Source: Dehalococcoides sp. JdFR-54 (lineage in GTDB: Bacteria; Chloroflexota; Dehalococcoidia; JdFR-54). Taken from it: a DNA stretch of 64,000 nucleotides. Shown here one piece after another: positions 11,981 to 62,294 of this stretch. How positions within the stretch are numbered: position 1 is the stretch's first letter; each line of letters begins with the position of its first letter. A program made the translations under genes and the position numbers. The notes below the pieces were generated by a model. The model saw only the letters and a list, made by a program, of their open reading frames with translations. It was not told where the DNA came from and did not search any database. The stretch lies in the NCBI GenBank assembly GCA_002011475.1, contig MTNP01000049.1, forward strand, positions 1 to 64,000, written 5' to 3'.

Positions 11981-11983
11981 TCT

Positions 11984-12994: not shown

Positions 12995-13857
12995 TCCCCC
13001 ACCCCCAGCTTCTCGTCCCTGACGAAGGTGGCCAGAGGGAAGAGGGCCTCGGCGGTCATGCCGGGGCGGAAGTTGAAGAGCTGGGCCACCTCCCAGGCCA
13101 GCTTGTGATTCAAGAGGTCGAGGCGGATGTCCACAGGGCACGCCCGGCGGCAGGCCTGACACTCGATACAGCGCCCCGCCAAGTGGAAGGCGCGGATGGT
13201 ATGCCACATCCAGTTCTGGGGGGCATCGATCCTGATGCCCACCCACTCCGGCTCCAGCCGCTCCACGAAGCATTCGGTGCACTGACACCCCGGGCAGGCC
13301 TGGCGACAGGCGTAGCAGCGGATGCAGCGCTCAAACTCCCGCCTCCAGAACTGGCAGCGCTCCTCCGGGGGCATCCTCTCCAAATCCTCCACCTCGGGGA
13401 GGGGTGGGGCGGGGGCTGGTGCCCCCTCTGCCACCGGCTCGCCCACTAGGTAATCGTAGACCACCGGGTTGCGATCGGTGCAGGCCTGGCAGGCGGGCAG
13501 CAACTGCCGGCCCTTGACCCCCCACTGCCTCCCCACTACGCCGGGGCAGACCACCCCAATGATGTACACTTTGTCCCGCTCTATCTGATGTTCGCCGTGG
13601 AGCAGGTTTATGGCCCGGGAATCGCAGGGCTTGACCACTACGGCGATATTCTCGGCCCTGTGGTGGAGCAGATAGGTGGCCAGATTGTGGCCACAGGTCT
13701 CATCGAAGATGAGCCTGTCCACCTCGGCGGCCTCATAAATGAAGGCGGGACGGGCGTTTATGCCATCGGTGCCCGTCTCGTAGCCGATGACACACTTTAC
13801 GGCGCCGGTTTCCAGGAGTTCTCGGGCCTTATCCCTGATGGCCTGGCTCAGGTCCAT
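12979..13857 (-). CDS. flxC: 4Fe-4S ferredoxin-domain protein, FlxC-like
   Basis: CIRCYACRQACPGCQC, CIECQACRRACPVDI; start MDLSQAIRDKARELL at 13857. Confidence 0.72.
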   Translation of the reverse strand: MDLSQAIRDKARELLETGAVKCVIGYETGTDGINARPAFIYEAAEVDRLIFDETCGHNLATYLLHHRAENIAVVVKPCDSRAINLLHGEHQIERDKVYIIGVVCPGVVGRQWGVKGRQLLPACQACTDRNPVVYDYLVGEPVAEGAPAPAPPLPEVEDLERMPPEERCQFWRREFERCIRCYACRQACPGCQCTECFVERLEPEWVGIRIDAPQNWMWHTIRAFHLAGRCIECQACRRACPVDIRLDLLNHKLAWEVAQLFNFRPGMTAEALFPLATFVRDEKLGVGEWASS

Positions 13858-14273
13858 TACGACTGCCCCCCGACAGCCTGGCACGGGCCCAGGCGGGCCA
13901 CCTGCTCGGTGAAATCGGTTACCAGTTGGGTGAAGCGCTTGCCCTCGGAGGCGGACACCCATTCCAGGCGGATGCGCTCCGGCTCGATGCCCAGGAACTC
14001 CAGGAGCAGGTGCAGCAGGGCGTAGCGGCGCCGGGCATGGTAGTTGCCCTCGGCGTAGTGGCAGTCGCCGGGGTGGCAGCCGGCCACCAGCACCCCGTCG
14101 GCGCCCTCCTGGAAGGCCTTGGCCACAAACAAGGGGTCCAGCCGCCCTGTGCAGGGGACGCGGATGATGCGGATATTGGGCGGGTAGCTCATGCGGCTGG
14201 TGCCGGCCATATCGGCGCCGGCATAGCTGCACCAGTTGCACAGGAAACCGATTATCCGGGGCTGGTAGCTCAT
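13857..14273 (-). CDS. flxD: MvhD/FlxD-type hydrogenase iron-sulfur subunit
   Basis: GFLCNWCSYAGADMAG, VPCTGRLDPLFVAKAF, GCHPGDCHYAEGN typical of MvhD. Confidence 0.9.
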   Translation of the reverse strand: MSYQPRIIGFLCNWCSYAGADMAGTSRMSYPPNIRIIRVPCTGRLDPLFVAKAFQEGADGVLVAGCHPGDCHYAEGNYHARRRYALLHLLLEFLGIEPERIRLEWVSASEGKRFTQLVTDFTEQVARLGPCQAVGGQS

Positions 14274-16270
14274 CGGGTCAGGGCCTTCACCTGGGCCAGT
14301 AGTTGCTCGTTGCTAAAGCCGCGCAGGTTCATGGCGCCGGGCCGGCAGGCAGAGACGCACAGCCCGCAGCCCTTGCACAGGCCCTCGTTTATCCTGACCA
14401 CGATGCGCCCATCGCGGAGGGTTTCCGTGTCTATGGCCTTGAAGGGGCAAACCTGCTGGCAGAGGAGGCAGCCCACGCATTTCACGGCGTTTACATTGGC
14501 CACCATAGGCTCCAGGGCCAGGGTGTCCTTGCTGAGCAGGCCACAGACCTTGGCAGCGGCGGCGCTGCCCTGGGCCACCGAGTCAGGGATGTCCATAGGG
14601 CCCATGGCCGTGCCCGCCAGAAACACGCCGTCGGTCATGGTCTCCACAGGGCGCAGCTTGGGGTGGGCCTCCACCAGGAAGCTGTGGACATCGTAGCTGA
14701 TGTGGAGGGTCTGGGCCAGCTCGATGGCCCCCTCGCTGGGCTCGATGCCTGTGGCCAGCACCACCAGGTCGGCGGCGATCTGGACGGGGCGCCCCATAAG
14801 GGAATCCTCGCCCCAGACTATGAGCTTGCCCTTTTCGGGGTAGGTCTTGGATACCCGGCCCCGGATATATACGGTGCCCGCCTCCTCCTGAGCCCGGCGC
14901 ACGAACTCCTCATAGTTCTTGCCCCCGGCCCTGATATCTATGTAAAAGATGTAGCTCTGGACCTCGGGGTCGTGCTCCTTGAGCATGATGGACTGCTTGG
15001 CCAGGTACATACAGCATACCTTGCTGCAATAGGGCCTGCCTACGGAGTCGTCCCGGGAGCCCACACAACTGATGAAGACCACCGTCTTGGGTGGCTGGCC
15101 GTCGGAGGGGCGGGTCACCTCCCCCAGGGTGGGCCCCGAGGCGCTCATCAGGCGTTCCAGCTGGAGGCTGGTGATGACGTCAGGGTAACGGCCGCCCCCG
15201 TATTCGCCGTAGACGCTGTGGTCGAAGGTCTTGTAGCCGGTGGCCACTACGATGGCCCCGAACTCCTCGGTGATCATCTCGTCCCGCTGCTCCCAGTCGA
15301 TGGCCCCCACGGGACACAGCTTCTCGCAGATGCGACATTCCGGAGGTTTTTTGCCCTCGGCCCCCGCCCTCTGCCACTCCAGATATTGCTGGTAGCGGCA
15401 GTGCTCCCGGTCGATGACTGGCTTGCCGGGCACGGCCTGGGCGAAGGGGATATAGATGGCGGTGCGCTGGCCCACGCCCATATCGAACTCGGAGGGGGCC
15501 CGGGCGGGGCATTTCTGCCAGCAGATGCCGCAGCCGAGGCACTTATCGTGGTCTACGTGGCGCGCCTTCTGGAGGATGTCCGCCTCGAAATTGCCCACAA
15601 ATCCCCGCACCTCCTTCACCTCGGCATAGGTGAGGAGGCGGATACGGGGGTGCTGGCCCACCTCTACCATCTTCGGGGTGAGGATGCAGGCGGAGCAGTC
15701 CAGGGTGGGGAAGGTCTTGTCCAACTGGGCCATGCGGCCCCCGATGCTGGGGGTGCGCTCCACCAGGACAACCTCGAAGCCGGCATTGGCGATATCCAGG
15801 GCGCACTGGATGCCGGCGATGCCGCCGCCGATGACCAGGGCCCGCTTGGTGACGCCGATCTGGCGGGCGAATAGGGGCTGGGCCCTGGCCACCTTGGCCA
15901 CCGCCGCCCTGATCAGGTCGATGGCCTTGACGGTGGCGGCCTCCCTTTGGTCGCCGTGGACCCAGCTGGCATGCTCCCTGAGGTTGGCCATCTCCAGCAG
16001 ATAGGGGTTGAGCCCGGCACTGGCCACCGTATTGCGGAAGGTATTCTCGTGCATCCGCGGGGAGCAGGCGCCGATGACCACCCGATTCAGCCTATGCTCC
16101 TGGATGGCCTCGCGGAGGGAACGCTGGCCCACCTCGCTACAGGTGTATTCATTGTCTTCGGCATGAACCACCATGGGCAGCTTTTGGGCCTCCGCCACCA
16201 CCCGAGGGATGTCCACGGTGCCGGCGATGTTGCTGCCACAATGACAGATGAAGACGCCGATCCTGGCCAT
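14270..16270 (-). CDS. hdrA: heterodisulfide reductase subunit A (FAD and multiple 4Fe-4S)
   Basis: IGGGIAGIQCALDIANAG, TLDCSACILTPKM, several CxxCxxCxxxC motifs. Confidence 0.93.
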   Translation of the reverse strand: MARIGVFICHCGSNIAGTVDIPRVVAEAQKLPMVVHAEDNEYTCSEVGQRSLREAIQEHRLNRVVIGACSPRMHENTFRNTVASAGLNPYLLEMANLREHASWVHGDQREAATVKAIDLIRAAVAKVARAQPLFARQIGVTKRALVIGGGIAGIQCALDIANAGFEVVLVERTPSIGGRMAQLDKTFPTLDCSACILTPKMVEVGQHPRIRLLTYAEVKEVRGFVGNFEADILQKARHVDHDKCLGCGICWQKCPARAPSEFDMGVGQRTAIYIPFAQAVPGKPVIDREHCRYQQYLEWQRAGAEGKKPPECRICEKLCPVGAIDWEQRDEMITEEFGAIVVATGYKTFDHSVYGEYGGGRYPDVITSLQLERLMSASGPTLGEVTRPSDGQPPKTVVFISCVGSRDDSVGRPYCSKVCCMYLAKQSIMLKEHDPEVQSYIFYIDIRAGGKNYEEFVRRAQEEAGTVYIRGRVSKTYPEKGKLIVWGEDSLMGRPVQIAADLVVLATGIEPSEGAIELAQTLHISYDVHSFLVEAHPKLRPVETMTDGVFLAGTAMGPMDIPDSVAQGSAAAAKVCGLLSKDTLALEPMVANVNAVKCVGCLLCQQVCPFKAIDTETLRDGRIVVRINEGLCKGCGLCVSACRPGAMNLRGFSNEQLLAQVKALTR

Positions 16271-16272
16271 GA

Positions 16273-17130
16273 CTAAGCCAGCCCCTTCCCCCGAAGTAAA
16301 GGCATGGCATCTACAAAATGCTTGTTTATGTGCAGCTCCTTGGGCGAAAACCCGAGGGCCAGGCCCAGGAGCTGGGTGAAATAGAGGACGGGGATTTGAA
16401 AATCGTCCTTGAAAACGGATTTCATATTCAACTGCTGCATATCCAGGTTGCTATGGCACATGGGGCAGGCCACGGCCAGGCAGTCGGCCCCGGCGCCCCT
16501 GGCCTGCGCCAGGATGCGATGGGAGAGCTTGAGCACGATATCGCGCCGGGCGAAAGGCATGCCGGCCCCACAACACTCCGTCTTGAAGGCCCACTCCACG
16601 GTTTCGGCCCCCGCCCTGTGCATCAGGCCATCCATCACCTGGGGGTTGTCCTCGTCGTCGAAATGGGTGATGTCTGTGGGGCGCACCAGGAGACAGCCAT
16701 AATAGCAAGCCACCCTCAGGCCGCGGAGGGGCCTGGCGATGGGGATGTCCCTGGCATCCAGCACCTGCAGCAGGTGCCACACCTGGGTGGTGTTCTTGCA
16801 TTCCCGTTCTATGAGGCTACTGATCTCTCGCAGCTTGGCCTCGTCCTCCAGCTCGTGGGCGGCGAAGCGTAGCCGGGAGTAGCACATGGCGCAGGCCACC
16901 ACCAGGGGCAGGCCAGTGGCCTCGGCTATGGCCAGCTCCCGGGCGGGGAGGGCCACCGCCAGCCTGCGGTCCAGGGAGTGGGCCGAGGAGGCCCCACAGC
17001 AGGCCCATTCCTTCAGTTCCTGAAGCTCTATGTCCAGCCTGCGGCACACCTGGCGGGTAGAGACGTCATACTCCCTGGCGGTACCCTGGAGGGCACAACC
17101 GGGGTAGTAGGCATAGGAGCTAGCCGACAT
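16273..17130 (-). CDS. hdrB: heterodisulfide reductase subunit B
   Basis: YYPGCALQGTAREYD, WACCGA and ECCGAG CCG motifs. Confidence 0.92.
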   Translation of the reverse strand: MSASSYAYYPGCALQGTAREYDVSTRQVCRRLDIELQELKEWACCGASSAHSLDRRLAVALPARELAIAEATGLPLVVACAMCYSRLRFAAHELEDEAKLREISSLIERECKNTTQVWHLLQVLDARDIPIARPLRGLRVACYYGCLLVRPTDITHFDDEDNPQVMDGLMHRAGAETVEWAFKTECCGAGMPFARRDIVLKLSHRILAQARGAGADCLAVACPMCHSNLDMQQLNMKSVFKDDFQIPVLYFTQLLGLALGFSPKELHINKHFVDAMPLLRGKGLA

Positions 17131-17744
17131 CAGCCGCCCCCCCGGGCCGCCGTGGCCCGTTTTTGGGCAGCCCTGACCCTGGCGAAGAGCCTCCTCACCT
17201 CAGAGGCGCCCTTGTTCCGGGGTGGCAGGAAGGCGATCTTGCCCCGGGCCAGCATGGCCGGAACCAGGTTGATATTGGCCAGGGGGTGACGGGCGCGCAG
17301 GTTATACCAGATGCCCAGGCCGAACTCATACATCCGCCCAAAACGCCGCACCAGCCCCAGGAAGATGCGGTGGAACAGGGAGACATTGGGGGCGCCCAAT
17401 CCCCTTTCAGTGGCGAAGGCCAGCAGCCTCAGCCCCTCCATTATGGCGGCGATGTCGATCTCCCGGGGGCAGCGGGCGGAGCAGACCTGGCACTGGAGGC
17501 AGAGCCAGATGGTGGTGCTCCTCAGTAGCTCGTCCTTGAGGCCGAGCTGGATGGCCCGCAGTACCTGGCGAGGATGGAGGTCCATCTCCTCGGCTACGGG
17601 GCAGCCAGCGGTGCACTTGCCGCATTGATAGCAGGCCCTGGCCTTTTCCCCGATAGCTTCTTGTAGGTAGGAGACGAGCTCGGTCTCTTTATCCCTGTCC
17701 CTGGCCAAAATAAGGGGCCTGAGGCCCACGGTAGCAGCGTCCAT
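17130..17744 (-). CDS. hdrC: heterodisulfide reductase subunit C
   Basis: CYQCGKCTAGCPVAEEM and CLQCQVCSARCPREIDI. Confidence 0.92.
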   Translation of the reverse strand: MDAATVGLRPLILARDRDKETELVSYLQEAIGEKARACYQCGKCTAGCPVAEEMDLHPRQVLRAIQLGLKDELLRSTTIWLCLQCQVCSARCPREIDIAAIMEGLRLLAFATERGLGAPNVSLFHRIFLGLVRRFGRMYEFGLGIWYNLRARHPLANINLVPAMLARGKIAFLPPRNKGASEVRRLFARVRAAQKRATAARGGG

Positions 17745-36830: not shown

Positions 36831-36890
36831 CAGATTTAGGGAAAGGCAAAACCGCTCCCCGACGTGGGGAAAATCCGAACTTGTGTTGAC
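36831..36890. repeat. Island intergenic repeat, copy A
   Basis: CAGATTTAGGGAAAGGCAAAACCGCTCCCCGACGTGGGGAAAATCCGAACTT; shares CAGATTTAG-GAAGGCAAAACCGCTC with copy B and GGGGAAAATCCGAACTT with copy E. Confidence 0.7.
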
Positions 36891-36960
36891 TTTTAGTTTG
36901 TCGCTGGCCTCTGCAGACCAATCTCGATACTCTTCCCATTTTTTAAAAAATAGGACTTAC

Positions 36961-37392: not shown

Positions 37393-37487
37393 CTGAGTTC
37401 GGGCAATCTTGTATCTGCTCAGATTTAGAGAAGGCAAAACCGCTCACCATTTAGGATAAAAGGTAAAACTTTTGAGAAGAGCTTTGC
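37393..37487. repeat. Island intergenic repeat, copy B
   Basis: GAGTTCGGGCAATCTTGTATCTGCTCAGATTTAGAGAAGGCAAAACCGCTCACCATTTAGGATAAAAGGTAAAACTTTTGAGAAGAGCTTTG; abuts the stop codon of the 37497 gene. Confidence 0.8.
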
Positions 37488-37496
37488 CTTGACCTA

Positions 37497-39730: not shown

Positions 39731-39794
39731 ATTTTACCTTTTATCCAGAAATCGGGCTAAACCATGAAGCTGGCTCACCATTTAGGATAAAAGG
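39731..39794. repeat. Island repeat, copy C (left part, interrupted by the IS), with an inverted copy of the core
   Basis: ATTTTACCTTTTATCC (inverted core) ... GCTCACCATTTAGGATAAAAGG, then the IS3 end. Confidence 0.8.
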
Positions 39795-39875
39795 TGAGGT
39801 GGTCCCCAAAATTCGGACAGGTTGTTAAGAGCGGGTCCCGCCCCTAAGATGATAAAGATCAAGGAGGAGCAGGAC

Positions 39876-42309: not shown

Positions 42310-43059
42310 TCATCGACTTGCGAGTTCCAGGGTGGCTGCCATCCTAGCCGGAAAGTCACGCCATGATTCAGGCTGAATGGAATCCACTAATTGGTGCCAC
42401 CTATGATGCCATTCAACCGGTGCATCCAGTATAGCGTCCAGAAACGATTCAGAGAGAACCAGCGGAAGCTGGTCTATTAAGTCCATCACCTTCAGCTTGG
42501 ACACCTTCAGGGTGATCCCGCTACCTATACCGAGCTCAGTTTCTATAGCAGCCGTAGCGTGCCCCTCACTTTCAACGCTAAGGATGTTATTTACTGACAC
42601 GCTAACTAAGGCAGCACGTCCGTTTTTTGCAAGTGAGGATTCTGTCACGCCCCACCTACCTCTGTAGGCAAGTCGAGCCTGCCCCAGTAGCTCCATATAC
42701 ACAGAGTAGAAACACCCGAGTCTCAGCCCGATGGTCTTCCGAGGATCGCTTTTATCTATGTGCCAGTGTTTTTCCTTTGCAGTGTGCCCATCGTACCAAT
42801 CCCTGTAAGGCCCGATGCGCAATAGCTTGTTCAGCCAGCTCTTCCGGCAGACGATGCATTCTACGACGTCGATTTGCCTCATGAACCCCTTGGAAGGCAC
42901 TAGCATCTGTGGATCTTTTCTGGTTTGTCTACCGGAGCCGAGGGCCATCGTTACATACTTGATTCCGTTGAGTGATAGCCCATGTTTTCTTAGCAGAGCA
43001 AGTTCGCTCTCGTCGAGATACAGTTGGTGGAGGACATTACTGCTTCGTGAGCACCACAT
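42310..43059 (-). CDS. hypothetical protein
   Basis: 249-aa ORF just upstream of the nuclease-like gene. Confidence 0.6.
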   Translation of the reverse strand: MWCSRSSNVLHQLYLDESELALLRKHGLSLNGIKYVTMALGSGRQTRKDPQMLVPSKGFMRQIDVVECIVCRKSWLNKLLRIGPYRDWYDGHTAKEKHWHIDKSDPRKTIGLRLGCFYSVYMELLGQARLAYRGRWGVTESSLAKNGRAALVSVSVNNILSVESEGHATAAIETELGIGSGITLKVSKLKVMDLIDQLPLVLSESFLDAILDAPVEWHHRWHQLVDSIQPESWRDFPARMAATLELASR

Positions 43060-43127
43060 AGCTAAATCTTATCATAGCTACGCATCTGGGTCGAGCGCTG
43101 CTTGCAGGAATTTCACAAAAGTTTACT

Positions 43128-43165
43128 GGCTCCCCGCGTAGGGGGAAAATCCGAACTTTTTTCAC
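43128..43165. repeat. Island intergenic repeat, copy E
   Basis: GGCTCCCCGCGTAGGGGGAAAATCCGAACTT, like copy A. Confidence 0.65.
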
Positions 43166-43239
43166 GGTTTGGTTTATTGTAGCTATAGCGAGTAAAAAGC
43201 GGAAGGGTGAGCAGTCTTTATTTTCTCTGAAGTTGCGCT

Positions 43240-43869
43240 TCATCTTTCAAGCCACGGCTCCGTCACTCGCCATGTAATCTTACGGCAGATCGCCGGTTCA
43301 GGGTAGGCACCGAGGTCGTACAGCTCATAATCCCCAAACTGTGTTGGCTTTTCCTGATAACACGCTTGAACAGCCTCTTTGATTATTTCGGCGTCGGTCT
43401 CATTTACTAAGTCAACCAGTGTAACTTGGCTTCGAAACCGCTCGATGGAAGGGATCGTGCTGTTAAAAACATAGGCAGTGGGCGCCCTTGTGCCAATTAT
43501 AGCTTTATTTTTGTCCACACCGTTATTTATGAGTGCCTTCAGTGCATCCCCGGGCAAGTGACCTTCTGACTCTGCGGCGCATAGCACCAAATACCGGATA
43601 TTCGGATTTGCCACGATATTCGCTACTATCTTTTCTATGCCTATGTTTTCGGTCTGCAACATGCCAGCGAGGGCAGCCCCATTTTCAATTGTTATTCTAA
43701 CGATGCGCTCAAGCTCCGGCGGTATCGCATAATCAAATGTATTGAGAATGGCAACCACGGCAACGGGAGAGTAATCATTCCCACGCAGGTATCTTCCATC
43801 CTCAGGCGGATATCCTGGTGGCGGCTTCACCTTCAATACCTTTTCAGGGCTTTTCCATTCAGTCATCAC
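43240..43869 (-). CDS. MtrA-like protein (corrinoid-binding subunit of tetrahydromethanopterin S-methyltransferase family)
   Basis: PPEDGRYLRGNDYSPVAVVAILNT, GAALAGMLQTENIGIEKIVANIVANPNIRYLVLCAAESEGHLPGDALKALINNGVD; no C-terminal TM. Confidence 0.85.
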   Translation of the reverse strand: MMTEWKSPEKVLKVKPPPGYPPEDGRYLRGNDYSPVAVVAILNTFDYAIPPELERIVRITIENGAALAGMLQTENIGIEKIVANIVANPNIRYLVLCAAESEGHLPGDALKALINNGVDKNKAIIGTRAPTAYVFNSTIPSIERFRSQVTLVDLVNETDAEIIKEAVQACYQEKPTQFGDYELYDLGAYPEPAICRKITWRVTEPWLER

Positions 43870-44531
43870 TTTATGAGCGGGTGTCCCACCTTCTTCAGGT
43901 GCTCTTTCAGCTTTGGCACAGTTGCAGCCTCTGCCTCAGTCGCTATCTTACCCCTTATATCCTCAGGGATGACCTCGGAAACCTGTTCCTTTAAGGAGCT
44001 AGAAATCCACGCGACTCTGCTCCACCCACCATCTGCCTTAAGGAACTTCGGCGACTTCAGGTAGTCCACCGATATTCCTAGGTAACCCTCTTGTTGTTCG
44101 CCACCACCTGTCCGCTTTCTCAAGGCTGCCGCAGTGGTGCCGAAGATCCTTCCTTCAAATTTCCTGTCGACTATGGCGATCCCATTGACCCCCTTCAGAT
44201 AGAATGCAATGACCCCAAAGCATCCACAGGAGGCATGAGGAAAGCCGAACATGCTGTGAAGGAAGTATCTGCTATGCTTTCCGTTGGATCTCGCCGTCAC
44301 AGCATTATTTACCCCGCTATACTCTCCTCTAGCTGGATCCAGGCACTCACCTTTCTCAAACTGTGACAGATACTCGTCCTTGCCTTCGTTTATCTTCTCC
44401 TGATAGGTTTGGTACAGGCAGCCACAGCACCCAGGTCTCTCTGGGGTTATGATGCACACATGGTTTGGGGCAAAACGCTGACACTGAGTGTGGGCAAAGA
44501 AGACTTTGGCCTCTTCTTCCTTCATCTTCAC
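43866..44531 (-). CDS. Stand-alone acetyl-CoA synthase / acetyl-CoA decarbonylase beta-subunit (CdhC/AcsB) A-cluster domain
   Basis: FAHTQCQRFAPNHVCIITPERPGCCGC, GEYSGVNNAVT, FPHASCGCFGVIAFYL, FLKADGGWSRVAWISSSLKEQVSEVIPEDIRGKIATE; ATGA overlap with the MtrA-like gene. Confidence 0.85.
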   Translation of the reverse strand: MKMKEEEAKVFFAHTQCQRFAPNHVCIITPERPGCCGCLYQTYQEKINEGKDEYLSQFEKGECLDPARGEYSGVNNAVTARSNGKHSRYFLHSMFGFPHASCGCFGVIAFYLKGVNGIAIVDRKFEGRIFGTTAAALRKRTGGGEQQEGYLGISVDYLKSPKFLKADGGWSRVAWISSSLKEQVSEVIPEDIRGKIATEAEAATVPKLKEHLKKVGHPLIK

Positions 44532-44637
44532 ACATCCTCCTTTATTTGGTCTCTATTTTATTCCGCTTAGTTGTTTCAAGCAAGAAGTTGCTTGGCCATT
44601 TCGAACCCTTGTTTTACGCCTGGGCAATTCCAATGAC

Positions 44638-44700
44638 TGAGTTCGGGTCATTTCGTATCTAATTAGGTTCGTAAAAGCCAAAATCGCTCCCCATGCAGCA
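44638..44700. repeat. Island repeat, copy F (overlaps SEC-C 3' end)
   Basis: GAGTTCGGGTCATTTCGTATCTAATTAGGTTCGTAAAAGCCAAAATCGCTCCCCAT aligns with copy B. Confidence 0.65.
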
Positions 44701-44904
44701 TTTCTTGTATTTTTTACCACTCCCGCAAGGACACGGATCGTTTCTGCCGACCCCTTTCATATTCAGGCCTGCCAACTGACAGAATTTACAGATCCAGTCT
44801 ACATGGTTTCTTAACTTATTATCTCCTATTTGTTGTTGTACAACAAGAAGCAAGGTAAAAACTTGAGTAGATAGAAATTGAGAGTAGAGGTTAAAGCTCA
44901 CCAT
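44659..44904 (-). CDS. SEC-C motif small protein, possibly a remnant of a larger protein
   Basis: [20 protein letters not shown]. Confidence 0.65.
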
Positions 44905-44934
44905 TTAGGATAAAAGGTAAAACTTTTGAAAAGA
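44895..44934. repeat. Island intergenic repeat, copy G
   Basis: GCTCACCATTTAGGATAAAAGGTAAAACTTTTGAAAAGAG. Confidence 0.8.
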
Positions 44935-44947
44935 GTTTTGAATTAGC

Positions 44948-45739
44948 CTATTGATCCACCGCACAACTCTCGATGTCAGCTAGCAGTCTGTCTACGAAAC
45001 CAACAGTAGACCAAGCCCACGACCATTCTGTACTGGGGTCAAGCTGATGGTGATAAGGATTCCGAAGGTAAGAAACTATACCCAGCATTATTCGGTGAAA
45101 CGCGATTCGCTCATGTTTTTTGGTGCTGATGACCAAAACTGGATTGTCTGGCGAGAATAGTTTGTTGACTAGGTTTTCACCGGTCTGGTCAGCGCTGCTC
45201 GGAATCAAGCGAGCCAATCTTTCATGTGGGACCCTACTCCGAATGCGGTTTTCCAATACAGTAGTTGCTTCTCGGATCACTCTGTCATAATAACCTGGAG
45301 CTCTGAGTAGGTCGGAACAACGGCCCTCCAGTTCAGCATCTTTGATTACTAAAACAGGTATAGGCTGTTTCGGAGGCCATAGCCCCGCTTCTATAGCGCC
45401 CAACGCTCTATTCAACAATGTAGTGACAGCGGCTTTGAAATCGCGGAAATTGTGTGGCATTTCATTATTCCCACCCAGCAATGCAGTGGATAACAAGTCT
45501 CGATGGGAGACTCTTGGTGTGTAGGCGAATTTGGGTAAGACGATGACTCCATCACCAATAACCTCTAAGATGATTTTCGTTACTTGGGGTTCTTGTTTCT
45601 GTAGTTGTGCACGAAGGGAGTCAAGACGTTCACGTCTTTGCTCACCGAATATCTCGTCAGCATATTCACTGAATATTTTGAGAAAGGACTCCAGTGTATC
45701 TTTGACCTGTTGCGCACGTGTTTGCTCATCCATTGTCAT
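44948..45739 (-). CDS. putative TIGR02391/Ymh-like protein
   Basis: VIREATTVLENRIRS...LVNKLFSPDNPVL...AFHRIMLGIVSYLRNPYHHQLD; start likely near 45739. Confidence 0.55.
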   Translation of the reverse strand: MTMDEQTRAQQVKDTLESFLKIFSEYADEIFGEQRRERLDSLRAQLQKQEPQVTKIILEVIGDGVIVLPKFAYTPRVSHRDLLSTALLGGNNEMPHNFRDFKAAVTTLLNRALGAIEAGLWPPKQPIPVLVIKDAELEGRCSDLLRAPGYYDRVIREATTVLENRIRSRVPHERLARLIPSSADQTGENLVNKLFSPDNPVLVISTKKHERIAFHRIMLGIVSYLRNPYHHQLDPSTEWSWAWSTVGFVDRLLADIESCAVDQ

Positions 45740-45742
45740 TAA

Positions 45743-45796
45743 GCTCCCCCGTTCAGGATAAAAAGGTAAAACCAAGACCTTTGAAAAGACCTTCGT
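45743..45796. repeat. Island intergenic repeat, copy H
   Basis: GCTCCCCCGTTCAGGATAAAAAGGTAAAACCAAGACCTTTGAAAAGACCTTCG. Confidence 0.7.
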
Positions 45797-45858
45797 ATTG
45801 GCATATTGAGAGGGGCCATATCAATGAGTCCGACAGGTATCCCCTAATGTAGACTCTC

Positions 45859-47565
45859 TCACTCTTGATACACCAGAACCTTTTTGATCGTGTCAAATAT
45901 CATTTCTCTCCTGGCATCAACAAACTCTTCAAAGTGGTCAGGCTTGTGCAGCTGACGATCTTTCGGTATCAAATATCGTTCAAAGAAGTCGGGCTTATCC
46001 CTAAGAATCTGTGGGAAATACTCTTCCGGGAGAGCGTTTGTCTTCGACTTGTTCAAGCTACTTTCAAGGAACATGTAGTTGCCAATGTTGTTAACGAGCC
46101 GGTGGGGGTATTTATAGGGTGCTAATAGCATTTTGCTTTTTGGGAAGATATGGTCAATCTCAGGCACGTTGCCATTTAACTGGGGCTGGAAGTTCACTAT
46201 TTCGTTGTTGAATAGATACACTAGGTTGAGGATTATATAGGAATTACCATCAATAATATCGGCGTCAACGTCAGTCGTTCTGCCTCTGTTCTTGATAAAT
46301 GCCTCTAATTCAGAATGAGGGAAGTAGTCAACTGAGGAATAGTTTCTTATGACGTTTACGCAGCCGTCGATAATCGTGTCCGCTTGGCCACTAAAGTTCG
46401 CGTTTAACAAGGTCTTGTAAAGCCAGACCTGCATATTATGTTTGATTCTAGCAGAATTCGGTCGGCAATTGTGGATGTATGCGAAGTAGATAATTGGGAT
46501 CAGGGCATTGTAGCTTGGGAGCAAGTCGTCAGAGGTAATTCGAGCATACGCCAGAAAGTCAGCCAGGTATTTGAAGCTTTTCAGGATACGTTGCCAGTTA
46601 TCCCGTACAGCTGCTAGATTCCTTTCCCCTTCAGGTCCCTTAAACTTCTCTACTTGGTATCGCGCTCCCTTTTCCAAAACGACCAACGCCGTTTTCAAGA
46701 TGAAGTCTTTATCAAAATAGAATGCCCCGTTTTTGTTTAGCGTATTTATCAAATCCTCGAACTCTTCCTCGGCATCACCCCAGTTCAGCTTGATGAGCGA
46801 GAACATCAAATCGGATTTACTGAGGATTGTTCCCCCAGAATTTGTTCTGATGAAGATTTCTAGTACCTCGTTGTAATCAGTGAACTTTCCGGTAGTGCTG
46901 TCTATGGGATAATAGTAAATCAGTGGCAATTCGTTGAATATGTTCTTGACCTGGGACACGTTCTCCAAGACTTGTTCTTCTATCTCGCTATCAACTTCTA
47001 TTTCTTCCCGCATTCTGGTGAGAATCTTCCGCTGGATGGCGACGGCATTCTCGTCGCTCATCACAATTTCCTTCAGTGGCACCCAATACGCTCCGCCTCC
47101 ATTCCATTTTCTCGCTTCATCCCTGGTAGCGTACTCAAAATCGTATCTTAGCTCGTCCTTTCCGTCCTGGAATACTCCCTTCCCACTTAAGATATTGAAG
47201 TACAGCTCCTTGCCATTGTAAGTCCCCTTCAGCGCCATATAGAGAGTCTGAAGCCTCTGCTGCCCATCTAGGACAAGGGTCTTTTCCCTGTCCCTTAATT
47301 CGCTGGATTTTAGATAGGTCTCCTTCACGTTCATACCATCCCTATAGTCGTCAACAAACCGCCTGACCTGAATGTCGTCTCTGGTGACCCAAAACAGAAA
47401 CGTGCTAAACGGATAGCCCCTTAAGACAGAATCAAAGAATTTCTTCACCTGATTGTGAGTCCTGTCCTGCTTCCAGACGAAAGGTCTCTGAATATGTGGC
47501 AGCAATAGCTTTCTCTCGTCCATCATTTGGACAGCTTTCCTAATGGTCATGCTCTCGTATTTCAT
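45859..47565 (-). CDS. DUF262 family protein (GmrSD-like, C-terminal HNH-like)
   Basis: LLPHIQRPFVWKQDR, LVLDGQQRLQTLYMALKG, EIDHIFPKSK...NIGNYMFLESSLNKSK. Confidence 0.88.
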   Translation of the reverse strand: MKYESMTIRKAVQMMDERKLLLPHIQRPFVWKQDRTHNQVKKFFDSVLRGYPFSTFLFWVTRDDIQVRRFVDDYRDGMNVKETYLKSSELRDREKTLVLDGQQRLQTLYMALKGTYNGKELYFNILSGKGVFQDGKDELRYDFEYATRDEARKWNGGGAYWVPLKEIVMSDENAVAIQRKILTRMREEIEVDSEIEEQVLENVSQVKNIFNELPLIYYYPIDSTTGKFTDYNEVLEIFIRTNSGGTILSKSDLMFSLIKLNWGDAEEEFEDLINTLNKNGAFYFDKDFILKTALVVLEKGARYQVEKFKGPEGERNLAAVRDNWQRILKSFKYLADFLAYARITSDDLLPSYNALIPIIYFAYIHNCRPNSARIKHNMQVWLYKTLLNANFSGQADTIIDGCVNVIRNYSSVDYFPHSELEAFIKNRGRTTDVDADIIDGNSYIILNLVYLFNNEIVNFQPQLNGNVPEIDHIFPKSKMLLAPYKYPHRLVNNIGNYMFLESSLNKSKTNALPEEYFPQILRDKPDFFERYLIPKDRQLHKPDHFEEFVDARREMIFDTIKKVLVYQE

Positions 47566-47968: not shown

Positions 47969-50533
47969 TTATCTCCGCCCACCAACGGCCTGAATGTAAT
48001 TGTGGAGGGTCTTATACGTGTTATCACCCGTCTTCAGGAACAGGAGGCGGGCAACTTTGGAAATGGCATCGGGACTAGTACTGCTGCTCAGGGGGATGCT
48101 ACCTTTGCCTTTCACATCGTTGTAGAGGCGATGGAGCTGATCAATAACAGTGTAGCTTGAGTGCTCTTCCAGATATTTCTTGCGCTGCACAGGGGAGAGC
48201 ACCACAACCTTGCTTCCATCTCGTTTGATAAGCTGTTGCCTCTCTAGTGACCTGAGGAAGTCTTCGCCCCCGACTTTGAAGCGTTTGTCTATGTCGTCTT
48301 TAGTGAGCCCACGCCGGCCCGCTACGTAGAGGCAGTAGTCTCTAGTGGTCTCATCCACGCCAGCAGGAATTTCTCGCAGGTCTTCTTCCTTGATTATGGT
48401 GTCCACCATATCCGCCATGTCCTCGAGGGCCTTCGTAATGCCCTCTTCACCCCTGACGGGCTGCCCATCATCGCCATAAACCTTTGGGTAGTAGCGGGAG
48501 AAGACTTGTAGACACTTACCCATGAGGATGACGAAGACATCTTCATCGCTTAGCCCCTTCCCCTGTGCGCGGTAACTGCGAAACAGATCCACCACCTCTT
48601 GATACACCTCCCCCTTAATACGACCCAGGCTAGCCTCAACTCTGGGCTCCTCCTTTCGCTTTCGGCACACGCAAGGTATGTCATAGCCTGCCCCGCCACG
48701 GTGGATGGTGGTCTCTTGCTCTGAGGTGACAGGATAGATGGCATCCACCGTAAATCCGGACTCTAAGATGCTCCATAGGAGCCCTGCCCAAGCCCACGGC
48801 TTGGAGTGGTGGAAGGTGAAGACCAGAAAGCCGTCGTCCTTGAGGACTCGGCGGCACTCCCGGTAGCACGTTATCAATCCGGCCCAGAATTCCTTCCGCT
48901 GCCGCGCCTGCTCCTCCCCAGCTAGGCCGGGCATCACCACAAGCTCTCCCTCAGACCTTTTCGGAGTATAGATAGGACGATACCAGGAATAAGTGTCCTT
49001 GAGGGCGAGACATTGCCAGATATAGAAGAAGTCAGCCAACTCCCCATACATCACATTGTCGCAGTAAGGAGGGTCGGTGACGACAGCGTCTACCGATTGC
49101 GGAGGTAGAAAAGATAGGTCTTCTGCGGTACCACAGCGGAGGAGAGCGTTGCGGTCGTTTTCCATTAGGTCATTATAGGAAAAGGCCAACTTGCCCTCAA
49201 ACCCATCACCAATCGCCTTCCTTGGAGGCTTGCCTCCGAGGTTCGCATTCCAGGGCTGAAGGCGATACTCTGTGCCTTCTATAAAGTTGGTGTAGCATGA
49301 AAGAAAGCCCATACCCCGTCCCCACGGATTGGTCTCTGCTACCTGAGCTGGAGGGATATACGCATGGTGTGCAAACAGGTCCCTCATCTGAGCATGTCCA
49401 GCATGGTAGGTCGCAAACATGTTAGTAGCCCTAAGGCTGTCCGAAAACGCCAAGAGCAACGCCTCGCGAACCCTGCGGTCCTCCACTTTCACTATCTCCC
49501 CAAGCAACAGTGACAAGGTCAAAAGCTGTCGCTCGTTGAACATCTCATAGAAGTAGCGGTACAGGAAATTCTTGGCTTGCTTGGTGTTAAAACCATCTCG
49601 CATTTCCTGGGTTGGCACCAACCTACCCATCACCTCATCTTTGATGGCGTTCCAGTCGTCCTTTGCTCTTTCGAAGAGGCGGACGTCTTCCTCATCTACC
49701 CCTTTGTAGTCTCTCGACTTACACTGGGGGCAGTAGTATTCGACTGCAAACATCTCCGGCTCCGGAGGCCGGCCCCACTTCTTCACAACATCAAGCACAG
49801 AATCAGTGCCGTGCACGCAGCGGAAATTCGGGCTTTTCGCTTCCTTCACTCCCCTGCTGGGGTCGAACGCTTGCAGGCACTTGGGGCAGGTAACCTGCTT
49901 CGCTCCCGCAGATGCCCACCATACAGTGTAGCACTCGGGGCAGAAGACGGTGTCCATCTCCCGCTTATCGCGCCTGACTCCGCGTGCTAGGATGTAGTTC
50001 GGGAAAAGCCGAACCATCTCACCGCCCCGCTGGCAGGGAACTTTGTTAACCCAGAAAATATACATCGCCTCAGCCTGGTGCCCCTTGAGACAGCAGGTCT
50101 GGTAGTAGGATTTTATTCTGGGGGCGATTCTGGCCTCTATACCCTTAAAAGCAGCGTCCAACGCTTTGAGGTCTATTGGCTCGAGAGCGTTTTTGACAGT
50201 AAACCAAGCCACCGGATGGATTTCCATACCAATGACCTTACAACCCAAGCGAAGGCCTTCCACTAGCGTTGTGCCTGAGCCCATGAAAGGGTCAAGGATC
50301 ACTTTATCTAGGGTGTGCTTCTTGTAGAACTCACCACCCAGAGCGTCAAACAGCCTGGCGCCTTCGGGGAGAAAGGCGGCCAGGATAAGGGCACGGAAGA
50401 TGCACCCGGCCCGGTGTGCCCACCACTTATGCATCTGATAAATAGGCGGTGTCGTTATCCCCTTTTCCTTAGAGACAAGGTCGTTCAGCTCTTGGATGGG
50501 AAAGTCCACCTCAATTAGTCGGCGCATGAGCAA
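47969..50533 (-). CDS. DUF1156/COG1743-type adenine-specific DNA methylase with Zn-ribbons (PglXI-like)
   Basis: YQMHKWWAHRAGCIFRALILAAFLP, LDPFMGSGTTLVEGLRLG, VTDPPYCDNVMYGELADFFY; CPECx and CPQC zinc ribbons. Confidence 0.88.
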   Translation of the reverse strand: MLMRRLIEVDFPIQELNDLVSKEKGITTPPIYQMHKWWAHRAGCIFRALILAAFLPEGARLFDALGGEFYKKHTLDKVILDPFMGSGTTLVEGLRLGCKVIGMEIHPVAWFTVKNALEPIDLKALDAAFKGIEARIAPRIKSYYQTCCLKGHQAEAMYIFWVNKVPCQRGGEMVRLFPNYILARGVRRDKREMDTVFCPECYTVWWASAGAKQVTCPKCLQAFDPSRGVKEAKSPNFRCVHGTDSVLDVVKKWGRPPEPEMFAVEYYCPQCKSRDYKGVDEEDVRLFERAKDDWNAIKDEVMGRLVPTQEMRDGFNTKQAKNFLYRYFYEMFNERQLLTLSLLLGEIVKVEDRRVREALLLAFSDSLRATNMFATYHAGHAQMRDLFAHHAYIPPAQVAETNPWGRGMGFLSCYTNFIEGTEYRLQPWNANLGGKPPRKAIGDGFEGKLAFSYNDLMENDRNALLRCGTAEDLSFLPPQSVDAVVTDPPYCDNVMYGELADFFYIWQCLALKDTYSWYRPIYTPKRSEGELVVMPGLAGEEQARQRKEFWAGLITCYRECRRVLKDDGFLVFTFHHSKPWAWAGLLWSILESGFTVDAIYPVTSEQETTIHRGGAGYDIPCVCRKRKEEPRVEASLGRIKGEVYQEVVDLFRSYRAQGKGLSDEDVFVILMGKCLQVFSRYYPKVYGDDGQPVRGEEGITKALEDMADMVDTIIKEEDLREIPAGVDETTRDYCLYVAGRRGLTKDDIDKRFKVGGEDFLRSLERQQLIKRDGSKVVVLSPVQRKKYLEEHSSYTVIDQLHRLYNDVKGKGSIPLSSSTSPDAISKVARLLFLKTGDNTYKTLHNYIQAVGGRR

Positions 50534-50538
50534 GCCTC

Positions 50539-51441
50539 CTATTTGGCTTTAGCCTTGATGACGGGAACCAAGCACTCTACAAAGGAGAGCCCGCCATGGA
50601 AATACATCTTATCCCTTTGCCGCCAGATATACCTCCCCCGTACCAAGAGGGTATCACCGGCAGACAAGGTCTTCTCAATAACAATCGGCGAGGCCTCCTT
50701 GCCCCGGGCATACCGTGCACCTCCAAAGAGTTTCCGCATCGCCGTCTGCGCCGACTGAGCAAGCTCGAAGGCATGGTCAGCCCTGTCGGCGTAAACGTAG
50801 CCATGGTCTGAAGTGAGGAGGAAGGCGTCGCGTCCTGAGTTGCGCAGGATTTCAAGGATGTATTGGGAGGTCTTGCCGAAGACCTCTGAGGGAGAAAGGA
50901 TGGTAGCGTGGAGACCTCTATCAGGATATCTCAGCCAGATAAAGCGGAGGTTTTGTGGTGGAAACTGGGGCACGGGGTGGCCGGGAGGAGAGACGAAGAT
51001 TCCCTGCCTGGCGCTAATCTGGGTGGGTTGGCCCATGTTGAAGTGCTTTCGGGTAAAGGACGCGGTGTCCGAAGGCAGCGCTGAAAGGGAAAAGGAAAGA
51101 CTCTCGACCCGGTAGTTTTGAGCCTCCAAGAAGGGCTTCAGCAGACACGCTTCCCGGATGCTCATTGCATCCACGATAATGACAAGCCTATCCTCTTCAC
51201 CTGCCCAAGGCGACGTTTTGTAGACTGCCGCAGCATCACGGAGCTCCTCATAAGCTTCAAGGTATGTCCGCTCTAGAGTTTCTTCAAGCCGGCAGGACTC
51301 TATCTCCTTGTCTCCATAGAACCCGTCCAAATCGTGTGGAACGGAATCAACGGACCATATGTCCGTGAGGGCATCCCACACCACCGATAGCGTGTTATCT
51401 CCTCCTATTAGGCGGCGTAGAGCTACCTCAATGTTCTTCAA
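50539..51441 (-). CDS. Short PglZ-domain protein
   Basis: RLVIIVDAMSIREACLLKPFL, FLLTSDHGYVYADRADHAFE, YFHGGLSFVECLVPVI. Confidence 0.78.
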   Translation of the reverse strand: MKNIEVALRRLIGGDNTLSVVWDALTDIWSVDSVPHDLDGFYGDKEIESCRLEETLERTYLEAYEELRDAAAVYKTSPWAGEEDRLVIIVDAMSIREACLLKPFLEAQNYRVESLSFSLSALPSDTASFTRKHFNMGQPTQISARQGIFVSPPGHPVPQFPPQNLRFIWLRYPDRGLHATILSPSEVFGKTSQYILEILRNSGRDAFLLTSDHGYVYADRADHAFELAQSAQTAMRKLFGGARYARGKEASPIVIEKTLSAGDTLLVRGRYIWRQRDKMYFHGGLSFVECLVPVIKAKAK

Positions 51442-54010
51442 TCTCCACCTCCAGATTGAGGGTCACCGTATCCTGGGGAAGCTGGGTCTCGGACACCGGC
51501 ATCGGAAGCTTATTGATAAGCTCGATGATATTAGCCTTCGAGAGGGAGATGCGCTCTGCCGAGAGATTAACGCCTATTTGCCCCTTTATGCCTTTGGCTT
51601 TCAGGTCTTGTAGCAGTTCAGTTAGCTTTTCTACCCCCTCCAGCGATTCAGCTTTAATATCAACGGCAAACTGGATAACTTTGGCCTTCTCTTCCAGCTT
51701 GTTATATACCTCTGACCGCAAGCCTGCAGGTGTGGCAGCCTGGAAGGGACGAGGCTCTGTCCGAACTGGCATGGGTGTAGGAGTGGGAGTAGGTGTTGGA
51801 GTTGGCGTGGGGGTAGGCGTAGGAGTAGGAGTGGGCACTGCTCTGTATTTGGCATCTTTAAGGCGCATCTTATCGGTCAAAGCCAATCGTTTAATAGCCT
51901 CGGGGCTCTCTTTGCCCAGAACTGTTACCCCATCCTCGATAACTATCTCTCCTTCAAGGGCCAGCTCCTTCGCCTTCTCCTCAAAGATAGCCCTGCTCAG
52001 AAGCATGGGGAGATGGCGGTATTTGAAGAAACTTCCTAACAGCACGCCCACCTCCATGCCCTTAGCCGCCTCAGCTGTTACCTCCTGCTTACAGGCCTGC
52101 TTCACATCTAACGGAGAATGCTCTCTTCTAAGAAGCCCGAGAATGGACTCCTTCCCCAAGTCTACCGGCAGAGCCATATGGGTCTCTCCCTTCGGCGGGA
52201 GAGGCTTCATGTATCGCCCGTAGGCCGCTTTTAAGGCCTTCGTGAGTTCGCCTCTTTCCTCCTTCTCTACGTCCTCCAGTTCCTTCTGCTCGTCCTTCTC
52301 AATTTCTTCCTTTAAGAGCTCGCATTCGAGCAGCCTCCTGCTTCTCAACAGGAAATCGCCCTCAGAAGTGAGGTCTTGGCCCGTAGTGGGCAGGATGACT
52401 GCTACAGTGTTGGCCTTCTCCACGTTCTTGAGCATGTCCAGGATTTCTGTATCACCTAAGTTCAGCAGTGAGATGACCACTTTGGCTTTGGAAGTATCGG
52501 GTATTGGATCAAGCGGACAAACATAGACCTCCTCTATGTCCTCTACTCCCGCTTGATAAGTAGTTGTCCTTGCCGTTTTCAGGAGGACTTCACCCTTTAT
52601 GACCTCGGCGAATTTTATCTTGGCCTTGTCCTTCATCTCGGGGTCCTGGAGATTTCGCCTTGCCCGCTCATCCACGACCACTCGTATTTTCCTTCTCGGC
52701 TCAAAGATATAATTGCCGTTCCTCTTCCGCAGATGCCAACACTTATCATAGCATTGTGCCAAAGCAGTCTGAAGCTCGGCGATGGTAACAATGGGCCTAA
52801 CCGCTCCAAGAAGCGCCCGAGCTTCCTCAATGCCCCTGGCCTCTGTCAACGACCAAAGGAAGACAGAGGTCAAGACTTCGAGGGAGCGAGCAATACCTTT
52901 GGATCTCTCTGCATCTTCCATGAACTTGCTTAGGAGCGCTGAGTCCAGCCTATTTAGGTCGTGTTGGGTCTCCCTGCTATACAGATTTACATCACATGGG
53001 AGAAGAAGGTCTCGGTCATCTTTATGCTCCATCACTACATCCGCCAAGAAGGCCAGGACTCCTCTGGTGTGCTGATAATGGCGGTGCCTTCCGTAGGCCT
53101 CGAAGGCCAGCTTCAGGAGCTCAGGATGGACAGGGTAGCGGGAGACCATCGTGTCCCGATACTTCTGCAAGCCCCCCGTAGTGCCCACAAATGTCTCTTG
53201 ATTGCTGGCGTAGACATTCAAGTAGGCACGTATGGTGTCATCATCGGGCCTTCGTGATGCGAACAGGCGATGGAGAACGATGTCCTCCTTATCCACGTCC
53301 TGGTCCAAGTCATAGATAGCTATATCCGGGCGAGTAAGGACGAACCGGATGCTGGTCTCACGCTCCAGCGACGAGACGATGAGAACGAGGCGGGAGCCCT
53401 TCTGGTCAGCCACCTCACTGAGGTTCTGAATGAAATTCCGGTTCCACTGCCTCTCTTGGGCGGTGAGGCTGCTATACCAGTCTTCCCATTCGTCGAGAAG
53501 GATGGCTACGGGCCTGTCCCCCAGGGCCGCCCTTATTTGCTTTACCGCGGGCCAGCGTTCAATGGAGGATATAAGGTCCTGCCTCCCAAGGGCATCAAGA
53601 AGAGGCACCCAGAGCTTTGTAATAGGTCCACCTTCAGCTACGAGCTGATAGGGGAGAACAAGGGCGTCTTCAGGTAATTGGTCAGCCTCCTGTATATTGT
53701 TCACCTGAAGCCATTTCAGTGCTTCGGGGCTCCGTCGGAGTAAGTGAGTAAGGGTCACAAGGATATGGGATTTCCCTGAGCCACCTCCACCTGTGACAGC
53801 GAAGGTTCCGCGCTGCTCCTTTCCTGTGAGCTTGCGGATGGCCGATGTCAATAGTTGACGAAGCGTCGAGGTGGGGAAAGTGACGTCCAAGAAGCGCCCC
53901 GGGTCACTCTCCAGAGTGCCCTTCTCTTCAAGGCGGTAAAGGCGGACTATCCCGTAGATTTCTTTTTTTGCAACTTCATCCCGAATGGTAACCCACTCTT
54001 GGAATGCCAT
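51428..54010 (-). CDS. Large P-loop ATPase (BrxC/DUF499-like) with PT-repeat linker
   Basis: [19 protein letters not shown] Walker A, [12 protein letters not shown] Walker B; PTPTPT... tract before the C-terminal domain; overlaps pglZ-like gene. Confidence 0.78.
   Translation of the reverse strand: [860 protein letters not shown]
51772..51837 (-). repeat. In-frame hexanucleotide-like repeat encoding (Pro-Thr)n
   Basis: GGNGTN repeats on + strand; translated [24 protein letters not shown]. Confidence 0.9.
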
Positions 54011-61211: not shown

Positions 61212-62294
61212 TTAGAAAAGTATGGCGTTCGACTGCATGCCCCCAATGATGAGCAGAGCGTCGGGCATGGTGATCTTGGCAATTGAGATCTTGGTGATGT
61301 AGAAGCGGATGGAGTCGGTCTTTGCTTCGTCCTCCCGCTTGGTGGTGAGATCACGCTTGTCCACGATCCACCCTGCCCTCTCGGTAGCGATGACGAGCCC
61401 GTTGCCCGAAGGCACCTGCCCTGAGATAGCCACCCTGAGGCTGCCCACAGCTCCGATCTCGCCGGGAACCCTGATAGCCCCCTCTCCAGCCTGGAAGGTG
61501 AGATAGCCTACCAAATCCTTCTGCAAAAGGTTGGCACCAGCAGCATCCAGGATCAGGAAGTTGGGCCTCTCCTTTCTTGCCAGCACCTCTGCCTGGGCTG
61601 CCAGAATGTTCTTGTAGGTGAGGTCGGTATGGGTGGTCTCTGTCTGGATGTAGTGGTAGTGGCGTCCTGAGGCATAGGTGTAGCTCACCGTAGCTGTTTC
61701 ACCACCGGCGCCAGCCGCCGAGTCTATCCTCAGCTTGCCATCCCTGTAGTTGACGCCTACCAGGCTCTTGCCTGCCATCGTAAAGGCGGTGATGGCCAGC
61801 ACCGGGCTATGTGCCAGCTCCCCATCGGTTGAGCCCTCGGCGAAGGCCACGGATTCATCGGTGACCACGGTCACTCCGAAGATCTCGTTCATGATGCGAG
61901 TATCCTCAAGTAAAGCCATGGCATAGCCCGCCTCGTCGATGTTGTCCCGAATGACATCGTGCTGGGCAGCATCGATGGCTTCCTGGGTGATCTTGAGGGG
62001 CACACCGAACTTGGTCGGCGTAACCTCTACAGTATCGCTGTAGGTCACACCTTCAGGGGTCACCGCGCTCATATCAGCGCCCTCAGCGAACTCCTGGGCT
62101 GTTATCTGGCTCCTGATGGGCAGGAACACGCTTTTCCCCGGCTTGGGCACCAGAATGTCGGTGTTCCGCCTCAGCAGATTCCTACCCAGGAGAATCTCCC
62201 TCGCCTTTAGCTCCACCGCCTTGGAGATGACCTTGGGCAGCATCTCTGTTATGGTGGTGGTTTCAACCGTTGCCAGTTGCTCCAGCGTCTTCAT
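61212..62294 (-). CDS. putative phage major capsid protein
   Basis: 360-aa ORF; FGVPLKITQEAIDAAQHDVIRDNIDEAGYAMALLEDTRIMNEIFG; position after protease/scaffold genes. Confidence 0.7.
   Translation of the reverse strand: MKTLEQLATVETTTITEMLPKVISKAVELKAREILLGRNLLRRNTDILVPKPGKSVFLPIRSQITAQEFAEGADMSAVTPEGVTYSDTVEVTPTKFGVPLKITQEAIDAAQHDVIRDNIDEAGYAMALLEDTRIMNEIFGVTVVTDESVAFAEGSTDGELAHSPVLAITAFTMAGKSLVGVNYRDGKLRIDSAAGAGGETATVSYTYASGRHYHYIQTETTHTDLTYKNILAAQAEVLARKERPNFLILDAAGANLLQKDLVGYLTFQAGEGAIRVPGEIGAVGSLRVAISGQVPSGNGLVIATERAGWIVDKRDLTTKREDEAKTDSIRFYITKISIAKITMPDALLIIGGMQSNAILF

Follow-up and report, generated by a model that had tools for sequence, protein, structure and literature searches.

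A stand-alone A-cluster domain of archaeal CdhC type encoded next to a soluble MtrA-family protein in a low-GC island of Dehalococcoides sp. JdFR-54

Acetyl-CoA synthase (ACS) ranks among the most ancient enzymes of carbon fixation. Its A-cluster domain normally occurs attached to further ACS domains, with CODH and a corrinoid Fe-S protein as its working partners. What could such a domain do when it is encoded by itself, next to a corrinoid protein of a different family? The question is raised by two genes in the window, by which is meant the whole 64,000-nucleotide stretch of DNA analysed here (contig MTNP01000049.1, positions 1 to 64,000). According to the ORF list and its translation, both genes lie on the minus strand: positions 44531-43866 encode a stand-alone ACS A3 (A-cluster) domain of archaeal CdhC type (221 aa from a GTG start; Pfam, a CdhC model, PDB and a tree agree), and positions 43869-43240 encode a soluble MtrA-family corrinoid protein of 209 aa that lacks a C-terminal membrane helix (PF04208, NF002126 and an AlphaFold2 model). 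A first-pass annotation, made from the sequence alone, had proposed these coordinates and both protein identities; the open reading frames and profile searches confirm them, with E-values far beyond chance. The pair is real, unusual and apparently unreported; it is represented by one instance, and its function is one that we infer.

The HMM searches that had been proposed as a check on the first-pass annotation matched both the MtrA family (PF04208, E 6e-42) and the A3 domain of CdhC/AcsB (PF19436, ACS_CODH_B_C, E 1e-51), the latter over residues 2-220 and thus over nearly the whole domain. A CdhC model of 464 positions aligned to the ACS-domain protein only at 179-399 (E 9e-80), which bears out the earlier reading that only the A-cluster domain of CdhC/AcsB is present. 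The score against the equivalog TIGR00316 (249.5 bits) falls below its cut-off of 356, for which the missing domain may be the explanation. A2 is absent, as is bacterial A1, and a tblastn search of positions 43001-47000 recovered no A2 remnant (best E 0.16). The best identity to this domain in any genome searched was 51%. A single-sequence structure prediction of the domain was useless (pLDDT 35) and was left out of the evidence.

The two genes meet at a stop/start overlap, AAGTGATGACT (43866..43869, minus strand), that couples them, the start of the MtrA-family frame lying within or adjoining the stop codon of the ACS-domain gene. The overlap had been described as ATGA; at this junction it is instead GTGA (4 nt) if the GTG start is used, or 1 nt if the in-frame ATG is used. 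A Shine-Dalgarno sequence, AGGAGG (44536..44541, minus strand), precedes the ACS-domain gene by 4 nt when counted to the GTG and by 10 nt when counted to an alternative ATG at 44525, which is better spaced and would give a protein of 219 aa. With AGGAGG in place and no A2 remnant upstream, translation would start at the natural boundary of the A3 domain, which is what one would expect of a functional gene and not of a piece cut at random, and this clean ribosome-binding site at the domain boundary, together with the stop/start coupling, argues for a real two-protein unit.

The residues that would hold the metal site were located by an alignment of 70 A3 domains that included the window and host copies. 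The first [4Fe-4S] cysteine (Moorella Cys506), which is Cys in all 68 CdhC/ACS sequences covering the site, is replaced by His14 (44490..44492, minus strand). The other three [4Fe-4S] ligands, Cys17, Cys26 and Cys36, are retained along with Phe20 of the CO pocket (Moorella Phe512; together at 44424..44483, minus strand), as is the dinickel-binding CGC motif, Cys102-Gly103-Cys104 (44220..44228, minus strand; kept in 69-70 of the 70 domains). Five of the six A-cluster cysteines, four for [4Fe-4S] and two in CGC, are therefore kept. Two extra cysteines flank Cys36, with Cys35 inside the ligand stretch and Cys38 just beyond it. The ligand roles follow what is generally known of the A-cluster together with published work (PMC5298270; PMC11474084). 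Across the domain, 48 of 60 near-invariant positions are kept and 12 are changed (six relatives keep 54-60), compared with 25 of 95 variable positions kept. Judged from the alignment, most of the metal site is preserved, though in modified form, and it could accommodate a cluster with three Cys ligands and one His.

The MtrA-family protein passed the cut-off of NCBIfam NF002126 and fell below that of the equivalog TIGR01111 (136 bits against 249). Its AlphaFold2 model, computed from an alignment of 30 relatives, reached pLDDT 92, and Foldseek superposed it on cobalamin-bound MtrA (5laa) with a TM-score of 0.93 (target length). For comparison across species, a scan of one genome per species in 85,462 species supplied the best 80 of 140 MtrA loci (L050-L129), at 54-67% identity. 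Glu74 (Glu54 in MtrA numbering; 43648..43650, minus strand), the hydrogen-bond partner of the cobalt-ligating His, is Glu in 79 of these best 80 of 140 relatives, and His104 (His84 in MtrA numbering; 43558..43560, minus strand), the lower axial cobalt ligand of cobalamin, is His in all 80; the roles of Glu54 and His84 in the cobalamin site have been described for MtrA (PMC4915002). By homology, the protein would bind a corrinoid in a His104-on state. A departure at Pro132, in the meander region, affects a residue invariant in 80/80 of the same best 80 of 140 relatives. The soluble MtrA homologues of methanogens and bacteria (5laa; PMC4915002) thus share the fold, the Glu/His pair, the length and the absence of the Mtr-complex membrane helix with this protein. 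Sequence identity is 41%, and the meander motif GAIPY-xEN reads APTAYVFN in the window. It differs from these homologues in its company: no other Mtr subunit occurs among the window ORFs, and the partner gene encodes an ACS domain. In keeping with the first-pass annotation, the ORF list and a Pfam scan also revealed no CODH in the neighbourhood.

What would a methyl-carrying corrinoid protein and an altered A-cluster domain do together? The explanation that fits best, held tentatively and at rather less than even confidence, is a horizontally acquired two-gene methyl-transfer module, in which methyl groups would pass from MtrA to an altered Ni-Fe-S site or in the reverse direction, and which would not be a complete acetyl-CoA synthase. 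An A3 domain naturally receives its methyl group from a corrinoid protein. The MtrA-family protein would bind its corrinoid and carry the methyl group; the A3 domain would hold either Ni-Ni-[4Fe-4S] with His in place of one Cys or a cluster in which Cys35 or Cys38 is recruited as a ligand; and the two would exchange the methyl group. This would amount to the methyl-transfer half of the ACS reaction, with the domains protecting CO and acetyl left out. The physiological end might be feeding or draining the Wood-Ljungdahl pathway of the host, or detoxifying methylation. Cofactor content, the interaction of both proteins, the direction of transfer and this physiological end are all parts that we infer. 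The retention of the Glu54 and His84 equivalents and the superposition on cobalamin-bound MtrA support this methyl-transfer reading, as do Cys17, Cys26 and Cys36, the CGC motif, Phe20 and the 48 near-invariant positions kept on the ACS side. An intact 221-codon frame at the end of a branch as long as that described below is hard to explain without selection, even though part of the divergence may predate the truncation. Moreover, the isolated, laboratory-made C-terminal domain of Carboxydothermus hydrogenoformans ACS retains binding of the A-cluster, of CO and of methyl (PMC5298270), so that methyl chemistry by an A3 domain alone is possible. The role of MtrA outside methanogens has been described as unclear, and MtrA/MtrH of such organisms have been proposed to channel methyl groups to the Wood-Ljungdahl pathway (PMC9635834), genes of which the host carries.

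A1 or CODH supplies the CO alcove of ACS (PMC11474084); no such partner was seen beside the pair when its neighbourhood was examined by ORF list and Pfam scan. With the alcove missing and a ligand changed, full acetyl-CoA synthesis by the pair alone is unlikely; the absence of A2 and the 12 changed near-invariant positions also stand against it. A sensing role, which had been suggested as well, found no support. Several observations weigh against methyl transfer itself: an A-cluster ligand is lost, the 12 changes of 60 exceed those of any of six relatives, the MtrA-family protein departs from its relatives at Pro132, the pair is a single instance, and none of the adjoining genes encodes a methyl donor or acceptor.

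Of known proteins, the ACS domain most resembles CdhC, the archaeal acetyl-CoA decarbonylase/synthase beta subunit: its closest PDB chain is 9c0s_E, from a methanogen ACS (E 5e-58), it shares CGC, three of four [4Fe-4S] cysteines and the CO-pocket Phe, and CdhC is closest by tree. It differs from CdhC in lacking A2 and the C-terminal extension, in the exchange of the first Cys for His, in lying outside a cdh operon and in being paired with MtrA instead of CdhD/CdhE. The C-terminal domain of bacterial AcsB, represented by the 740-aa copy of the host, is homologous (about 37% identity), whereas the window domain has neither A1 nor A2 and sits on a different branch of the tree (support 100). The laboratory-truncated C. 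hydrogenoformans domain (PMC5298270) is likewise A3-only, but was engineered from a canonical ACS, whereas the truncation in the window is natural and one ligand differs.

Where, then, did the domain come from? In the tree of the 70 A3 domains it was placed on the archaeal CdhC side, which also includes some Dehalococcoidia copies, and it grouped with the copies of four archaeal genomes, Alkanophaga among them, at support 89. The end branch of the window domain (1.21) is the longest in the tree (median 0.08), and its exact position is unsure for that reason. Close full-length relatives, inspected by eye, lie in ordinary CODH/ACS clusters. The genome check proposed with the first-pass annotation turned up a full-length ACS in the host: the genome (1.69 Mb, 94% complete) encodes a bacterial ACS of 740 aa on contig C5, near ORFs resembling AcsD, a methyltransferase, FolD and Fhs. 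Descent of the window domain by duplication of this host acsB was ruled out by the branch of support 100 that separates them. The window copy is the sole MtrA in the host genome. The methyltransferase-like gene and its neighbours would suit a different arrangement, in which the full-length ACS or CFeSP receives methyl groups from MtrA and the extra A3 domain serves as an assembly, storage or decoy unit, and MtrA has been proposed to feed the pathway in non-methanogens (PMC9635834). The island copy is of archaeal type, however, and its separation from the host ACS implies that contacts with host partners would be new; in addition, an ACS is present in 39 of the 49 MtrA-bearing genomes, but the vicinity of the 80 MtrA genes (best 80 of 140) contains no ACS domain. 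A service to the host ACS is therefore a quite improbable account of the pair.

The search for a stand-alone A3 gene beside MtrA covered the phylum (300 genomes), the class (393), three archaeal phyla (345, 228 and 398) and 49 genomes that carry MtrA. These roughly 1,700 genome searches (the samples partly overlap) gave no second case, with the reservation that tables for some groups used strict E-values under which a very divergent copy could be missed. The pair is accordingly neither common nor known, as the first-pass annotation had left to a survey of co-occurrence. At the best 80 of 140 MtrA loci, no ACS domain was present in flanks of up to 8 kb. Scans of viral contigs for such a pair confirmed none, and the phage and plasmid collections gave a single ACS-domain match each (the plasmid one in a 2.6-Mb record), both at 32-35%. 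A short A3 frame in one genome (G1253) was rejected as a stand-alone protein, as it ends at the contig end; other short frames (G256/G410, G407, G380, G1082, G460) lie near contig ends or are candidates from tables only. The only real short case is a 259-aa ACS domain of an Alkanophaga genome (G390, contig C3; L150 7676-8455), which keeps the first A-cluster Cys. It adjoins an apparently fragmented CODH gene in what is a broken CODH cluster, and the same genome has three more CdhC copies.

These data invite a different interpretation of the window pair, namely that a piece of an archaeal cdhC was carried into the island along with an adjoining mtrA, and that both are being lost or are expressed without function. 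The single instance, the very long ACS branch, the loss of an A-cluster ligand and other invariant residues, and the comparable 259-aa copy of an alkane-oxidising archaeon within its visibly broken cluster are consistent with such decay. It is nonetheless an unlikely account: both frames are intact, a Shine-Dalgarno sequence stands at the exact domain start, the start codons are coupled, no A2 remnant lies upstream, conserved positions are retained far more than variable ones (48/60 against 25/95), and the MtrA branch is of ordinary length (0.33).

The surroundings agree with acquisition from outside. GC is about 0.62 in the core but only 0.46-0.56 from about 36 kb on, with values of 0.51 and 0.49 for the two genes themselves, and the codon usage of both is closer to that of island genes than to that of core genes. 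On this compositional evidence the pair lies in a foreign, low-GC island and appears horizontally acquired, and the mobile or foreign context suggested earlier is borne out. A misbinned stretch was ruled out, since 62% GC core occurs on both sides of the island in one contig. The position between island repeats was likewise found to hold: a 34-nt repeat (D3; 43142..43175, plus strand; other copy 36866-36899) lies 65 nt downstream of the pair and a 74-nt repeat (D1/D2; 44877..44950, plus strand; other copies 37423-37496 and, partial, 39773-39795) lies upstream. The 22-nt core of the 74-nt repeat occurs three times in the genome, always within the island. One short intergenic island repeat contains an imperfect inverted repeat, CTCACCATTTA...TAAAAGGTGAG, at 39774. 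Such short repeats between island genes may be marks of a cassette-type mobile element, and transposase-like and tyrosine-recombinase-like ORFs (by eye) are among the neighbours. The neighbours also include a GmrSD-type protein (positions 45859-47565; PADLOC HEC-05, E 5e-107) and, at positions 47969-54010, a probable phage-defence operon, in which genes for a DUF1156/HmaB-like DNA methyltransferase and a PglZ-like protein are joined by one for an AAA+ ATPase of HmaC/DUF499 type. Phage genes may start beyond about 57 kb; a weak phage capsid match (PF25209, E 8e-7) lies at 61212-62294. The core region at 11120-17744 has heterodisulfide-reductase-type and iron-sulfur flavoprotein-type ORFs (by eye). 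An Rfam scan of positions 36000-58000 and of the sequence just upstream of the pair yielded no family, thus no cobalamin riboswitch, and a promoter and terminator scan gave results at chance level.

The relatives of MtrA offer a further clue to function. The best 80 of 140 are spread over many bacterial and archaeal phyla, and at 44 of these 80 loci a gene for ACR3, ArsM, an ArsP-type permease or an ArsC-type reductase is found no more than 4 kb from MtrA, compared with none in 355 kb of other loci searched identically. Representatives of ACR3 and ArsM exceed curated cut-offs; those of the ArsP-type permease and ArsC do not, and their names are looser accordingly. The highest-identity relative among the best 80 of 140 (L050, 67%) has ACR3, an ArsR-family regulator and an ArsE-type thioredoxin as neighbours. 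Some relatives are fusions: the MtrA domain is joined to a PF04060 [4Fe-4S] (CFeSP-type) domain in Dehalococcoidia (L035-L037; 59-63% identical to the window MtrA) and, on a Planococcus plasmid (L183; 38%), to PF14251, a domain to which Pfam gives the name pterin-binding; the plasmid gene stands behind those for a metalloregulator and a heavy-metal P-type ATPase, in one operon with them. Such partners are as expected of methyl carriers. Several of these fused proteins occur in ars or metal operons, whereas the window MtrA is bare and lies beside an ACS domain. A literature search, with most subscription journals outside its range, found nothing relevant on a link between MtrA and arsenic.

By analogy, the window pair could then be a metal(loid)-stress module, in which MtrA would be the corrinoid methyl carrier of arsenic and heavy-metal operons and the ACS domain a repurposed thiolate or metal-cluster site. 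The mercury methylation proteins are the model for this comparison. HgcA is related to CFeSP and is not an MtrA protein. HgcA/HgcB nevertheless provide an analogy, and an analogy only, in that a corrinoid carrier and an Fe-S partner are linked to ars genes, which adjoin hgcAB of mercury methylators (PMC7438021); no ACS domain is present there. The ars genes at 44 of the best 80 of 140 MtrA loci, the ACR3 and ArsM representatives above curated cut-offs, the neighbours of the 67% relative and the Planococcus gene favour this stress module. Against it, no ars gene lies beside the window pair, ACR3 and ArsP_1 permeases are both absent from the host genome (94% complete), about half of the MtrA family (best 80 of 140) lies outside ars contexts, and the closest MtrA grouping is weakly supported in the tree. 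It is thus a possible but rather unlikely role for the pair, and the two-gene methyl-transfer module remains the preferred reading.

For the family as a whole, the strong association of MtrA with arsenic genes rests on more data than the gene pair itself, and the soluble MtrA family seems to be a corrinoid component of metal(loid) detoxification that has gone unreported. There is perhaps a small chance that both lines converge: soluble MtrA would be an unrecognised, HgcA-like corrinoid methyl carrier of arsenic and metal operons, coupled in the window to an A3-only domain with a three-Cys/one-His cluster, and the two would form a new Ni-Fe-S methyl-transfer enzyme apart from acetyl-CoA synthesis. 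The link to arsenic gives a widespread protein family a concrete function to test. If the methyl-transfer module is real, a naturally occurring A3-only protein whose metal ligand is changed and whose corrinoid partner is of another kind would mean that the A-cluster is detachable and reusable, and what an A-cluster is capable of without its CO-guarding domains would become testable in a natural protein.
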